From Deltaproteobacteria bacterium (GTDB lineage: Bacteria; DRYD01): a stretch of 21,715 nt of DNA. A program made the translations under genes and the position numbers. Positions within the stretch are counted from its first letter, which is position 1, and each line of letters starts with the position of its first letter. This document shows positions 5,698 to 21,715 of this stretch, in pieces. Location: contig JAPYWL010000016.1 in NCBI GenBank assembly GCA_028276365.1, forward strand, positions 1 to 21,715, given 5' to 3'. The notes below the pieces were generated by a model. The model did no database searches. It worked only from the letters and a program-made list of their open reading frames with translations, and was not told the origin of the DNA.

Positions 5698-5838
5698 CAA
5701 TTTAATTTTTCTATAATAAAGATAAAATCACCTTTTTAGATCAATTGTTTTTGTGAATTTGAAAATTTCATCTTTAAATCTCAATAACTATAATTCAAAG
5801 TAAATAACTTGCTTAACAATTTATTTACATTTTGAAAA

Positions 5839-6912
5839 TTAAGAATTATTGCGAATATTAGTTAAAATAGAATTTTCTACAGTAAATCCGTGTTTATCAG
5901 CTAATTGCTTTATTTTAGTAATCTTATTACTATCAATATTTCTACCTATACTATAATTTTCATTAATATTTTCAGCAGTAAGAATAATAGTTTCAGCCAT
6001 ACAAGCTAACACATTATTCTTAGGATACCCTATTATATCTTCAAAAGATATATTATTAAATAGTTTTCTAAAGATAGGGGTAGACGGTAACCTAATAATC
6101 CCTCCTTCAATAACTATAACATCTTTTCTTTTTTCAATAACTTCCTTTGAAACATTATGAGGCATAGATATATCACAAACTATAGAATTATATTTTAAAT
6201 CATTAACATCAATCAATTCCTTAGGACTAGAAGTAGCAATAATAACTACATCGCTTACTTTAGTAGCTTCTGATATACTAGTACTAACTATAATATTTTC
6301 TTTATTAAAATATGGATCATTTAGTAAAATTTCATTTTTTAAAGAATTTAATCTACTTTTATTCCTAGCTACTAAAAAAATTTTCTTATAATCTTTATAA
6401 ATCAAATGAGAGATGGCTTTACCAATAGCTCCCGTAGCTCCAATAACAGAAACTATTAATTCTTTTTTATTTAAATTCAATTGTTTTATATTATAATCAA
6501 CTACTTCCAAAGAAGAAGCAACAGTATAAGAAGCTCCAGAAGTAAAATATAATCTCTCTTTAAAAAGATTAACAAGAGTTAAACCTGCACGTCCTACAAC
6601 AGAAGTAAAAGCTCCCAAACCTAAAATCTTTGTCCCTAACTTAACAGCTAAATTACTACCTTTTATTAATTTATTAACAGCTAATTTTTCATCTTCTATA
6701 AATTGTTTAGCTAATAATGGAATAACAATAAACATTCCAAAGACTACATCATTTGTTTTAGTTTTTATTTCAACTTCAGCAGCTACAAAAGGATCTATCC
6801 ATTTTAAAATCCCCTCAATAAAATCTGGTCTCTTGTTAATAAGCTCAGGCATTACCCTATATAGATCATTATAATTTAACGGATGAATAAAAAAACCAAA
6901 TGGCCCCTTCAT
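5839..6912 (-). CDS. long-chain fatty acyl-ACP reductase (AAR) family protein
   Basis: The protein aligns by eye along its whole length with cyanobacterial acyl-ACP reductase, which reduces acyl-ACP to a fatty aldehyde with NADPH. FGFFIHPLNYNDL at the N-terminus and LGLGAFTSVVG at 98-107 match the catalytic domain. A Rossmann motif GATGAIG lies at 158-164 with VARNKSRL following. DISMPHNV (247-254) and EGGIIRLP (269-276) match the family. ACMAE at 303-307 places Cys304 where the acyl-binding cysteine of the cyanobacterial enzyme lies. The C-terminal GRNIDSNKI and KHGF also match. Its length (357) fits the family (about 340). It starts one base after the lpxA stop, so it is translationally coupled to the lipid A genes. 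No aldehyde deformylating oxygenase is in the window. The substrate and product fate are inferred; automated annotation may call it shikimate dehydrogenase-like. Confidence 0.78.
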   Translation of the reverse strand: MKGPFGFFIHPLNYNDLYRVMPELINKRPDFIEGILKWIDPFVAAEVEIKTKTNDVVFGMFIVIPLLAKQFIEDEKLAVNKLIKGSNLAVKLGTKILGLGAFTSVVGRAGLTLVNLFKERLYFTSGASYTVASSLEVVDYNIKQLNLNKKELIVSVIGATGAIGKAISHLIYKDYKKIFLVARNKSRLNSLKNEILLNDPYFNKENIIVSTSISEATKVSDVVIIATSSPKELIDVNDLKYNSIVCDISMPHNVSKEVIEKRKDVIVIEGGIIRLPSTPIFRKLFNNISFEDIIGYPKNNVLACMAETIILTAENINENYSIGRNIDSNKITKIKQLADKHGFTVENSILTNIRNNS

Positions 6913-12875: not shown

Positions 12876-14240
12876 TTAAGCTAAATTAGTGTTATTAATA
12901 TTATTATTATTTTTAAGTTTCATGGCATAAATAACAGCATTATAAGCATCAACTAACCCCGCACCTTGAGCATATTTATCATAAACTTGATTAGTTTGAG
13001 GATCTTTTATTTTACGTGCTGTTTTCATTAATATTTCTTTAATTAGCTTAGGAGTAGCGTCAGGTAAAATTTGACAGATTAAAGCTGCAATCCCCGATAC
13101 TATAGCAGTAGCTCCACTTGTTCCAGATAAATTAATATAATACTTACCCTGCCAAATATCATCTACAGAATTACCACCAGAATTTGAACCACTATTTACA
13201 TTATCTTTATAAATTTTATGTAATTCGTTATCCATTATTGTATTCTTAATATTAGTAGATGAAGTATAATAATTATCAGATTTTAGTTTATAAGGATCAA
13301 AGACTGAATTAGGGACCCTAGCACCAGCTAATAACTTAGCAGGAGCAACTACATCTGGTTTATCTAATAAATCAAAAGGAGTAGGACCTTTAGAAGAAGC
13401 ATCATAGATGGTATCATCTGAAACATCACAAGTATTCTTAGTATCAATTCCGCCAACTGTTATAACATCAGGTGCAATCCCTGGACTATCTATAGTTTCA
13501 TTAGCATAGTCATTCCCTGCAGCAGCTACAACTGTATAATCCTGAGCTAAATCATTAGATAATTTAGCTATAGTATCATTTAGATATCCTGTCTTAGGAT
13601 CAACCCCTATTGATAAATTAACAACCTTTATATTATATTTTTTCCCATTTTCTTTTATCCATTCTAACGCTTTAATTATTTCAGAAACTGAGGTTATTCT
13701 AAGAATAACGAATTTAACACCAGGTGCTACTCCTTGATTATATCCATTTGACATTTTACCACTTCCACCTATTAACGAAGCAACATGAGTCCCATGACCT
13801 AATAAATCCTTAGGATTATTTTCATTAGATTCACCAGAAAAATCTTTATAAAATATTATTCTATCTTTTTCTAAATCAGGATGATTATAAATTATACCAC
13901 TATCAACAACAGCAACTACTACATCTTTCCCATCAATACCTAACTGTCTTACCTTATCTAAATTAATAGCAATTAAATTCGGATTTAATTTAGCACATGA
14001 ATCCTGAGATATATTTTCAGATTTTTCAACAGTAGCCCCTATATTCACTACTTTTTTTATTAAATTTAAATCAGGATTATTAGCAATAGGATTATATAAT
14101 ACATCTTGTCTAAATTCATCATTGTAATATGTTATAATGTTATATTTCTTTAAATCTTTTTGTAAATCAATTTTATTCTCTAAAAACTCTTTATTATAAA
14201 TTAAGTTTTTTATTTTACTAAAATTAGTTTTTTCTATCAT
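12876..14240 (-). CDS. subtilisin-like (S8) serine protease without signal peptide
   Basis: The catalytic triad is complete. Asp113 lies in VVAVVDSGI (108-116), His149 in GHGTHVA (148-154) and Ser375 in SGTSGATAIVSG (372-383); the oxyanion Asn243 lies in AAAGND (239-244). Residues 1-90 are a charged, Asn/Lys-rich propeptide-like region. The N-terminus has no hydrophobic signal, so the enzyme is probably cytoplasmic, like AprX/Isp-type intracellular subtilases. The active-site serine motif is GTSGAT instead of the usual GTSMAT/A. Residues 345-365 hold a low-complexity Ser/Gly/Asn insertion before the serine block, and the C-terminus ends in an Asn-rich tail. The ATG at 14240 has no visible SD. 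Upstream (14241-14338) is plain AT-rich DNA, then repeat copy A. Substrates cannot be inferred. Confidence 0.9.
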   Translation of the reverse strand: MIEKTNFSKIKNLIYNKEFLENKIDLQKDLKKYNIITYYNDEFRQDVLYNPIANNPDLNLIKKVVNIGATVEKSENISQDSCAKLNPNLIAINLDKVRQLGIDGKDVVVAVVDSGIIYNHPDLEKDRIIFYKDFSGESNENNPKDLLGHGTHVASLIGGSGKMSNGYNQGVAPGVKFVILRITSVSEIIKALEWIKENGKKYNIKVVNLSIGVDPKTGYLNDTIAKLSNDLAQDYTVVAAAGNDYANETIDSPGIAPDVITVGGIDTKNTCDVSDDTIYDASSKGPTPFDLLDKPDVVAPAKLLAGARVPNSVFDPYKLKSDNYYTSSTNIKNTIMDNELHKIYKDNVNSGSNSGGNSVDDIWQGKYYINLSGTSGATAIVSGIAALICQILPDATPKLIKEILMKTARKIKDPQTNQVYDKYAQGAGLVDAYNAVIYAMKLKNNNNINNTNLA

Positions 14241-14338
14241 ATGGTATATATTTTTATGAAAAATAATTACATTTAAAAAATAGGTTAAAAAAATGTTAAT
14301 TTTTTAAAAGAATGCTAAAAAATTAGTTTTAATAAAAG

Positions 14339-14478
14339 CAGAAAAATTAGCTTAGTTCACATTAACAGTTTTTTTTATTAAAAATTTATATGAAAGATTT
14401 TTCATTTTTTTACCTAATTATTATATTGGAGCAAATATACAACATATACGTTTAGCTTACCCCTAGGGGAATTGAAAA
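14339..14478 (+). repeat. dispersed repeat unit copy A: leader-like sequence plus one CRISPR-type repeat
   Basis: This unit is shared with 21208-21350. The 14339-14448 part is AT-rich and leader-like. It begins CAGAAAAATTA and contains a run of eight T followed by ATTAAAAATTTATAT, then TAATTATTATATTGGAGCA. It ends in one 30-bp repeat (14449-14478) with TTTAGCTTACCC, the palindrome CCCCTAGGGG and the terminal GAATTGAAA typical of many CRISPR repeats. The repeat is identical to copy B at 27 of 30 positions. No spacer, second repeat or cas gene is adjacent. It lies 13 bases beyond the stop of fumC, which runs in the opposite direction. Whether it is functional is unknown. Confidence 0.8.
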
Positions 14479-14491
14479 ATAAGCAATATTT

Positions 14492-15922
14492 TTAATATCC
14501 TGTTTTAGTTAAGTTTAAAGGATTTAATATTTTTTCAGCTTCATCTTGAGATAATATATTATTTAAAACCACATATTCTTTAATAGATAATTTATTTTTA
14601 AGCGCTTCTTTAACTATTTCATATGCTTTATCATAACCTACAATTTTAGCTAATGGAGTTACTATAGAAGGATTATAATTAACAATACTATTAACTTTTT
14701 CGAGATTAATTTTAAGCCCATCTATTAGTTTTTCTTTTATTAATTTTAATAAATTAGATAAAATAGAGATAGACTCAGTTAATGAAAAAGAAACTAGTGG
14801 AAAAGTAGTAGATAACTCAAAATTGGAATATTGATTAACAAAAGTTAAGGAATAACTTAATCCCACTATATAAGAGCAAGCCATACCAGTAGCTTCAGGT
14901 ACAACCGGATTAACTTTACCAGGCATAATAGAGGATCCTGGTTGAAGTTCTGGTAAGATTAATTCTCCAAAACCACCTACAGGCCCACTACCCATAAACC
15001 TTATATCATTAGTTATCTTTATTAAAGCTAATGCTAAAATCTTTAAAATATCCATTACTTCTATAAAAGTATCAATAGAAGCTTGAGCTTCAAAATGATT
15101 AGAAGTTTCCCTAAATTTAGGGTATATCTCAAATGGTATATATTTAGCCATAAATTCATTAATTTTATTAACTACTTTATAAGCAAAATCTACATGGGTA
15201 TTAATCCCTGTACCTACAGCAGTTCCCCCAATAGGTAACTCAGCCAATCTATTAAAAACTCCTTTAATCCTATCAATAGCTAATTCTAATTGTCTTCTAT
15301 AACCTGAGAATTCTTGAGAAAAAGTAATAGGAGTAGCATCCATTAAATGAGTTCTCCCTATTTTTACTATATCTTTAAATTCTTCTTCTTTTTGTTTTAT
15401 AGAATTTATTAAATAGTTAATATCGCTTATTAAATTAATTAACATTTTATATACAGCTATTCTAATAGAAGTAGGAATAACATCATTAGAAGATTGTCCT
15501 TTATTAACGTCGTCATTTGGATGTATAAATTTAGAACCTAATTCCTTACCTACCAAAGTAGAAGCTAAATTAGAGATAACTTCATTAACATTCATATTAG
15601 TAGAAGTCCCTGAACCAGTTTGGAAAATATCTAAAATAAAATTATCTTGATATTTTTCAAAATTATTTAATATCTCATCAACAGCATTAACAATAGCATT
15701 AGCTTTGTCAGAATTTAACAAATTTAATTCATTATTAACGATAGCAGCAGCCTTTTTTATAATAAGCAAAGCTTTAATAATTTCTGGATGAAATTTATAA
15801 TTACTTATTTTAAAGTTATTGATAGCTCTTTGAGTTTGAGGTCCCCACAGCTTTTCCTTAGGAATTAATACTTCACCCATAGGATCTTTTTCTATTCTAA
15901 AAGAATCTGTATTTATAGTCAT
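14492..15922 (-). CDS. fumC: class II fumarate hydratase
   Basis: This iron-independent fumarase interconverts fumarate and malate in the TCA cycle, acting in the cytoplasm as a homotetramer. The 476-residue length is typical. Family signatures are DIFQTGSGTSTNMNVNEV (98-115), GQSSNDVIPTS (142-152), KIGRTHLMDATPIT (187-200) with catalytic His192, and GSSIMPGKVNP (329-339) with catalytic Ser331. The Gly in MPGK and the NTHVDFA stretch favour fumarase over aspartase, which has MPAK. SD AAGGAGG lies 8 bases before the ATG at 15922. The upstream ureohydrolase gene ends 39 bases away. The 3' end is followed by repeat copy A, which lies outside the coding sequence. Confidence 0.95.
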   Translation of the reverse strand: MTINTDSFRIEKDPMGEVLIPKEKLWGPQTQRAINNFKISNYKFHPEIIKALLIIKKAAAIVNNELNLLNSDKANAIVNAVDEILNNFEKYQDNFILDIFQTGSGTSTNMNVNEVISNLASTLVGKELGSKFIHPNDDVNKGQSSNDVIPTSIRIAVYKMLINLISDINYLINSIKQKEEEFKDIVKIGRTHLMDATPITFSQEFSGYRRQLELAIDRIKGVFNRLAELPIGGTAVGTGINTHVDFAYKVVNKINEFMAKYIPFEIYPKFRETSNHFEAQASIDTFIEVMDILKILALALIKITNDIRFMGSGPVGGFGELILPELQPGSSIMPGKVNPVVPEATGMACSYIVGLSYSLTFVNQYSNFELSTTFPLVSFSLTESISILSNLLKLIKEKLIDGLKINLEKVNSIVNYNPSIVTPLAKIVGYDKAYEIVKEALKNKLSIKEYVVLNNILSQDEAEKILNPLNLTKTGY

Positions 15923-21207: not shown

Positions 21208-21350
21208 CAGAAAAATTACCCTACTACCCATCGACAGATTTTTTTTTATTAAAAATTTATATAAAGGATTTTTTATTTTTTTTAGATAATTATTATATTG
21301 GAGCAGATATATAGCATACGCTTTTAGCTTACCCATAGGGGAATTGAAAG
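21208..21350 (+). repeat. dispersed repeat unit copy B: leader-like sequence plus one CRISPR-type repeat
   Basis: This unit is homologous to 14339-14478 throughout. The left boundary is CAGAAAAATTA (21208). The leader-like part runs to 21320 and shares ATTAAAAATTTATAT and TAATTATTATATTGGAGCA with copy A, with small length changes in the T-runs. The 30-bp repeat is 21321-21350, containing TTTAGCTTACCC and TAGGGGAATTGAAA. Its left arm ACCC and right arm GGGG form the usual interrupted palindrome. On the opposite strand the repeat encodes the last residues and stop of thrS. No spacer or further repeat follows. Confidence 0.8.
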
Positions 21351-21715
21351 TTCTAATTTATTTAATAAATCAAAAAGAGAATCTAAATTTAAAGTAGTTT
21401 TTTCTTGAGAATGTTTAAGTCTAACATTAACAGTACCTGTTTCTTGTTCTTTTTGCCCAATAACAATCATAACAGGAATTTTACTTTTTTCATAATGCCT
21501 TATTTTATAATTTAAACTATTAGCTTTTAAATCAATTTCTACTCTGTACCCCTTTGATTTAATAATATCATATACTTTTAAAGAATACTCATTAAATTTA
21601 TCAGAAATAGGGATTATAACGATTTGAGTAGGAGCCAACCAAAATGGGAATTCCCCATTATAATGTTCAATAAGGATCCCTAAGAATCTTTCAAAAGATC
21701 CTAATAATGCTCTAT
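21324..21715 (-). CDS. thrS: threonyl-tRNA synthetase, C-terminal part (5' end outside window)
   Basis: The frame is open to the right edge. Its first visible residues, RALLGSFERFLGILIEHYNG followed by FPFWLAPTQ, are the end of the class II catalytic core (motif 3 region) of ThrRS. The anticodon-binding domain follows (VIIPISDKFNEYSLKVYDII, then KANSLNYKIRHYEKSKIPVMIVIG and VNVRLK). It charges tRNA-Thr in the cytoplasm. The C-terminus is odd. After LLNKLE the last residues are LSIPLWVS, encoded by the antisense strand of the CRISPR-type repeat at 21321-21350, and the stop lies inside that repeat. Normal ThrRS proteins continue for a few charged residues here, so the element has probably replaced the native tail. 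This is unlikely to harm activity. Confidence 0.93.
   Translation of the reverse strand, partial: RALLGSFERFLGILIEHYNGEFPFWLAPTQIVIIPISDKFNEYSLKVYDIIKSKGYRVEIDLKANSLNYKIRHYEKSKIPVMIVIGQKEQETGTVNVRLKHSQEKTTLNLDSLFDLLNKLELSIPLWVS

Follow-up and report, generated by a model that had tools for sequence, protein, structure and literature searches.

The element at positions 14339-14478 of the window (the whole stretch of DNA that was analyzed, 21,715 nucleotides) consists of a shortened CRISPR leader followed by a single repeat without a spacer, and it is one of 20 solo units of this kind in its genome. Based on sequence comparisons, we consider it moderately probable that these units are mobile leader-repeat cassettes derived from the genome's own type I-B leaders, and that they represent CRISPR loci in a zero-spacer founding state. 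The first-pass annotation had already proposed a CRISPR-type leader with a lone repeat at this position, a reading that was borne out by the sequence and by genome-wide matches. The genome assembly is a MAG of 1.59 Mb in 124 contigs, estimated as 87% complete, its relatives are the "uncultured bacterium" SRR5214706_bin.133 and a Tibetan MAG, and comparisons were made above all with a same-genus sister species (G001, the same genome as L056). The features of the window that are relevant here, with the evidence for each, are the following:

12876-14240, minus strand: subtilase-family gene on the leader side of unit A (open reading frame, neighbors)
14339-14478, plus strand: solo unit A, a shortened CRISPR leader plus one repeat, no spacer (sequence, genome matches, leader alignment, profile)
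14339-14449, plus strand: AT-rich leader part of unit A (aligned with the array leaders of contigs C84, C59, C71 and C68 and a G001 leader)
14399-14427, plus strand: weak promoter-like site, TTTTCA-17-TATATT, in the unit A leader (promoter scan, chance level)
14450-14478, plus strand: unit A repeat, 29 bp, GTTTAGCTTACCCCTAGGGGAATTGAAAA (sequence)
14492-15922, minus strand: fumC, convergent, with its stop codon at 14492-14494, 13 nt past the end of the unit A repeat (open reading frame, neighbors)
21224-21350, plus strand: solo unit B, leader about 21224-21321 and repeat 21322-21350 (homology to unit A, leader comparison)
21324-21713, minus strand: 3' part of a threonyl-tRNA-synthetase-like gene, anticodon-binding domain (open reading frame, C-terminus compared with a relative)

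Anatomy and number of the solo units

The repeat of unit A carries one or two substitutions relative to the array consensus, GTTTAGCTTACCCATAGGGGAATTGAAAG, and matches the repeat of the cas-linked array. Its central palindrome, CCCCTAGGGG at 14460-14469, is present as had been described, but the perfect form is peculiar to unit A, as the array consensus reads CCCATAGGGG at this place. The leader is homologous to the array leaders, though shortened: it begins at (C)AGAAAAATTAG, which in intact array leaders lies within the loop of a terminator-like hairpin, and as a result the 5' arm of the hairpin is absent. A stretch of the leader, TTATATTGGAG, is almost identical across all copies. We defined a solo as a unit without a further repeat at spacer distance, and no such repeat follows either unit A or unit B. 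Unit A was therefore not called an array, which would have at least two repeats with spacers between them.

A homologous second unit had been placed about 6.9 kb away, and this was confirmed for unit B, which lies at a distance of 6,872 bp and aligns with unit A at 86-93% identity in two ungapped blocks. Among the solo copies unit B is the nearest to the array leaders (93%). The threonyl-tRNA-synthetase-like gene has lost its native stop codon to unit B, such that its frame enters the unit and ends ...NKL-ELSIPLWVS*; the extra residues, ELSIPLWVS, are encoded by the reversed unit B repeat (window 21324-21350).

The earlier description of a dispersed element held in that leader and repeat are conserved together as a stand-alone unit, but two copies proved to be far too few. 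Searching the assembly with unit A gave more than 100 matches, which comprised scattered leader-repeat units, matching unit A at E values reaching 1e-42, and individual repeats that recur every 65-67 bp within arrays; likewise, a 26-mer repeat pattern had 113 matches in the genome, compared with 0 for the reversed control, so that chance is no explanation for the family. A profile of the unit identified 20 solos, together with four leaders that adjoin arrays or lie at contig edges and another that is truncated by the end of its contig. The solo cassette is roughly 127 bp in length, again comprising the shortened leader and one repeat, and most solos start in the hairpin loop at (CC)AGAAAAATTAG and have a right end of exactly ...GGGGAATTGAAAG.

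Many of the solos have derived states in common: ATCGACAG is replaced by ATTAACAG, 10 bp are deleted, the leader ends in ACATC..TCCTTAG, and the tail AATTAAAAGAAGGGGAATTGAAAG is present. The derived leader end, the deletion and the half-repeat tail recur in solos at unrelated loci, which indicates that solos were either copied from other solos or converted by them. We infer from these comparisons that the solos are mobile, rather than having been spread by gene conversion, although conversion between copies could also have distributed the shared changes. Ectopic conversion is in fact evident at the paralogous pair C83a and C16: identity is 91-97% in their longer matching blocks, and a sharp difference is confined to the final 50 bp of the unit. 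The two belong to a duplicated locus of at least 3.7 kb on C83 (L021) and C16 (L025), which contains a membrane protein gene and a D-aminoacylase-like gene, with a solo unit in each copy.

Units A and B have no adjoining full or partial repeats, and a half-repeat tail is present in many other copies. Tandem half-repeats occur at the right end of solos and in array trailers in two genomes, and may be a trace of the copying process. At CRISPR distal ends, tandem short copies of the 3' half of the repeat (GGAATTGAAAG plus 3-5 nt) form small satellites (L088 about 14270-14420; L085 2540-2660). In another solo (C124, L027 3104), a perfect inverted repeat, GTAATAACCGGTTATTAC, and T-rich DNA lie directly beyond the repeat, an arrangement similar to a terminator that could end a short leader-repeat RNA.

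Leaders, arrays and the type I-B system

The annotation had recommended a search for cas genes and for arrays with a related repeat, and both were found. Contig C84 carries a full type I-B operon, cas8b-cas7-cas5-cas3-cas4-cas6-cas2-cas1 (with a short cas4), directly upstream of an array leader that is followed by 32 repeats. Further arrays, which share this repeat and have homologous leaders, are located on C72, C59, C70 and C66, and contigs C68 and C71 end inside probable arrays. Given this operon, these arrays and these leaders, the proposition that the unit is an ordinary intergenic repeat or MITE with no CRISPR kin fails. The intact array leaders contain CTGTCGAT...ATCGACAG and then a T-run, forming the terminator-like hairpin, which is kept in the sister species with different letters.

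In total, 81 spacers of 35-40 nt were extracted over the arrays. Two spacers located in different arrays show a 22-nt overlap between opposite strands, which would be expected if both had been taken up from one invader. None of the 81 spacers had a full-length self match within 219 kb, the best partial match being 21 nt, and the idea that self-derived spacers recombined with their source was rejected on this basis. One spacer that is present twice in the C72 array (31 and 33) shares 21 consecutive nt with window 5814-5834, just beyond the stop codon of the open reading frame at 5839-6912; this match is above the shuffled maximum but is only partial. No protospacer was found for one GC-rich spacer, and hence no PAM was derived. 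A second cas6 (L083 585-1316, on C68) is located near the leader at the contig edge without adjoining cas genes, and its N-terminus is nearly identical to that of the C84 cas6.

In view of the fact that the assembly is a short-read MAG in which contigs break within leaders (C71, C68 and C72), the solos might be the product of an assembler that collapsed the repeats of real arrays or made chimeric joins through the repeated leader. We regard such an artefact as highly improbable, since this assembly did resolve arrays of 31 and 38 spacers, the order of the flanking genes (fumC-subtilase, for example) agrees with that in a relative, and the solo repeats and leaders have substitutions of their own.

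Most solos differ from the arrays in their leader end. The array-type leader end was present in 5/5 visible array leaders versus 2/20 solos (Fisher p 4e-4), and spacers were found at 0/20 solo loci. The two solos with array-like leader ends are unit B and the C124 unit, and yet these also have zero spacers. That 18 of the 20 solo leader ends are unlike all five visible array leaders suggests that most solos may be acquisition-dead; on this reading, the altered leaders would be unable to acquire spacers.

The sister species offers a second line of comparison. G001 has about six arrays with a related repeat and leader, and in the profile search it yielded array leaders only and no solo units. 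At the sites comparable to those of unit A, unit B and others there is no unit and the convergent gene is retained, with gene order on both sides preserved at A, B, C6, C106 and C51. The intergenic DNA is too diverged from that of G001 for insertion breakpoints to be placed at the base level. A different repeat, GTTATATCTGAACCTAGTGGAATTGAAAG, characterizes a second type of array in G001, on contigs C36 (L116) and C45 (L117), and half-repeats of this type sit in the trailers of its first array type.

These data bear on the possibility that solos are collapsed arrays, whose spacers were lost by recombination between repeats to leave the leader and one fused repeat. Such an origin would fit the frequent tail AATTAAAAG-AA-GGGGAATTGAAAG, which resembles a first repeat fused to the last 13 nt of another, the similar half-repeats in array trailers, and the existence of decaying arrays (C66, C70 and, in the sister species, C26). 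Nevertheless, we judge collapse to be rather unlikely. It would require about 20 former arrays, compared with about six in the sister genome; the 5' part of the leader is kept by arrays but missing from most solos; and the compared G001 sites are without an array remnant. Furthermore, the tail and the altered leader end are common to several loci, which would mean that the collapsed form itself was copied.

Placement at the stop codons of convergent genes

A strong regularity was apparent in the positions of the solos. In 18/20 solos the repeat points towards a convergent gene, at the 3' end of that gene. In 15/20, as judged from C-termini compared with a relative, the insertion falls between about -20 and +13 nt of the gene's native stop codon; as C83a and C16 share both flanks, the independent count is 14/19. 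The distances from unit end to stop codon were +1, +1, +1, +2, +2, +4, +5, +7, +8, +9 and +13, and in four more solos the gene reads into the unit and has its stop codon inside it. Relative to a uniform intergenic model with random orientation, the facing orientation had a p of about 4e-6; for the units that do face a convergent gene, closeness to its stop codon had a p of about 1.5e-7 under the uniform model. When 0-80 nt were reserved for the promoter of the next gene, the p for placement was still 5e-6 to 1.6e-4, noting that the null model throughout used a sample of about 120 gene pairs from one MAG assembly with open reading frames called by length only. Closeness to the stop codon also holds where more than 100 nt are free. 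The genes concerned have no common theme (fumC, thrS, lepA, relA/spoT, hemB, mutS2 and others, several of them named from sequence by eye). The orientation of unit A into the 3' end of fumC is an instance of a general placement rule and not a feature specific to fumC, and the order fumC-subtilase gene is also found in a relative without unit A.

The distal ends of arrays were found to be placed in the same manner. Arrays grow on the leader side, and a founding repeat should therefore stay at the distal end. In this genome 3/3 visible array distal ends are located where a convergent gene has its stop codon: ftsW/rodA (which reads into array remnants), an aminotransferase gene (1 nt) and infA (0 nt). 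The same was true of 3/5 distal ends in G001, at a radical SAM gene (20 nt), truB (within a few nt) and rapZ (7 nt), and of 1/2 in G002, at fumC (7 nt), the gene that adjoins unit A. The exceptions (C26 and C45 of G001 and C3 of G002) do not end at convergent stop codons and are followed by co-directional genes. The placement is thus not unique to solos and ties solos and arrays together. The fumC array of G002, which represents another genus, is on contig C19 (L119); the corresponding G001 site has nothing.

Among the earlier proposals was a guide-like or antisense RNA acting on fumC, for which we obtained no positive evidence. More generally, the units might be kept for regulation, as a crRNA-like or antisense RNA running into the 3' end of the neighbor or as an anti-repeat in its 3' UTR. 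The fixed orientation to convergent genes, the closeness to stop codons, the conservation of TTATATTGGAG throughout the copies and the presence of Cas6 and Cascade genes in the genome speak for such a role, but we consider it improbable. The 19 downstream sequences had no credible second full match in the genome except at one paralogous locus, although short partial complementarity would escape this search. Folding of the unit as RNA was no better than that of shuffled sequences on either strand, and the promoter-like site in the leader did not exceed chance. Moreover, the neighbors are unrelated housekeeping genes, and the units are missing from the sister species.

It is similarly improbable that the units are a selfish MITE- or REP-like repeat that originated from a CRISPR leader, is moved by an unrelated transposase and is found behind genes mainly because of selection against insertion elsewhere. 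The units are indeed multi-copy, short and non-coding with sharp ends, and REP elements likewise lie 1-20 nt behind stop codons (PMC12306157). The expected hallmarks of such elements are nonetheless missing. No terminal inverted repeats were found in the units, no fixed target motif was seen at either junction, and across 19 sites there was no target-site duplication above chance, with the exception of a 19-bp near-perfect one at C48; terminal inverted repeats and a fixed duplication are what define the MITEs of DDE transposons. A strong, stable palindrome is likewise lacking, and no Y1 (HuH)/RAYT transposase (PF01797), as required for REP or IS200-IS605 elements, was detected in this genome (G000) and G001, the MAG being 87% complete. 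In addition, arrays have the same placement, and selection against insertion elsewhere does not fit with the closeness to the stop codon persisting where there is ample free space.

Proposed origin and comparison with known elements

We propose that a cassette would be copied to a new site such that its repeat end meets a convergent gene at the stop codon. If the leader end were intact, Cas1-Cas2 could then add spacers on the leader side, and the founding repeat would keep its place at the stop codon, where it would form the array's distal end; the majority of solos, with a changed leader end, would stay empty. Array and solo would accordingly be two stages of one kind of locus, which we infer from their shared repeat, leader and placement. 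Of the three possibilities raised for the solo unit at the outset, the mobile cassette and the naive acquisition site fit together in this scheme and are the best supported, although the altered leader end of 18/20 solos speaks against most of them being active acquisition sites. More tentatively, it is possible that the lineage makes its new arrays in this way, by means of a stop-codon-directed mobile cassette that is copied in a fixed orientation and from which arrays grow. An origin of the units by off-target activity of Cas1-Cas2 was not adopted, as the unit is far longer than a prespacer; the repeat end is still a natural Cas1-Cas2 cut site. The genome was also searched for a reverse transcriptase (PF00078), as would be expected for a retrotransposed element, and none was detected in this 87% complete MAG.

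Little is understood of how a genome gains extra CRISPR arrays at a distance from cas genes. Since both stages occur side by side in one genome and a sister species lacks the cassettes, the birth of arrays becomes directly testable, including the enzymes that copy the cassette, the targeting of stop codons and the leader changes that halt spacer uptake. If the proposal is true, CRISPR loci have a dispersal mechanism of their own, separate from horizontal transfer and spacer acquisition, and the empty cassettes act as a selfish repeat family. Array finders that require two repeats miss solo leader-repeat loci.

The closest relatives of the solos are the genome's own type I-B arrays, with which they share the repeat, a homologous leader and a distal end that is placed at convergent stop codons; they differ in having no spacer, a leader cut in the hairpin, a leader end that is usually altered and about 20 copies far from cas genes. 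Stand-alone repeats, that is, CRISPR repeats outside an array, have reportedly been treated by Shmakov et al. in 2023. The methanogen Methanocaldococcus jannaschii is reported to have many dispersed near-identical leaders (the "long repeat" of Bult et al., 1996), some with very few repeats; those leaders head arrays, whereas the solo leaders here do not, and they are not known to be placed at stop codons. In the literature searched, from which subscription journals were mostly absent, there was no description of dispersed families of a leader plus one repeat.

Racr solitary repeat units, which are RNA anti-CRISPRs carried by phages, prophages and plasmids, are also composed of one repeat with no spacer, adjoin promoter-like sequence and are away from cas genes (PMC10651486). 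The solos, in contrast, are chromosomal and multi-copy, have a leader homologue and are located at housekeeping genes of conserved order; consistent with this, no viral contig in the searched collection carries the repeat. The ectopic repeats of CreTA and scaRNA are degenerate and have a spacer-like guide with a defined target (PMC9458426). They resemble the solos as CRISPR repeats outside an array in genomes with Cascade, but solo repeats are nearly consensus and have neither a guide nor a second target: none of the 19 downstream sequences was identified as a guide with partial complementarity to a promoter or toxin target, bearing in mind that short partial complementarity would not be detected. 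REP/BIME elements, which are linked to RAYT, share with the solos many short copies directly behind stop codons (PMC12306157), whereas the solos have no stable palindrome or detected RAYT/Y1 transposase and are of CRISPR origin. Finally, Escherichia coli K-12 provides a partial parallel. Its second array, on the ygcE side, does not fit, with about 640 nt separating it from a stop codon, but in CRISPR-I, which unlike the solos is a single locus with spacers, the distal degenerate repeat begins about 20 nt past the stop codon of the convergent iap gene.
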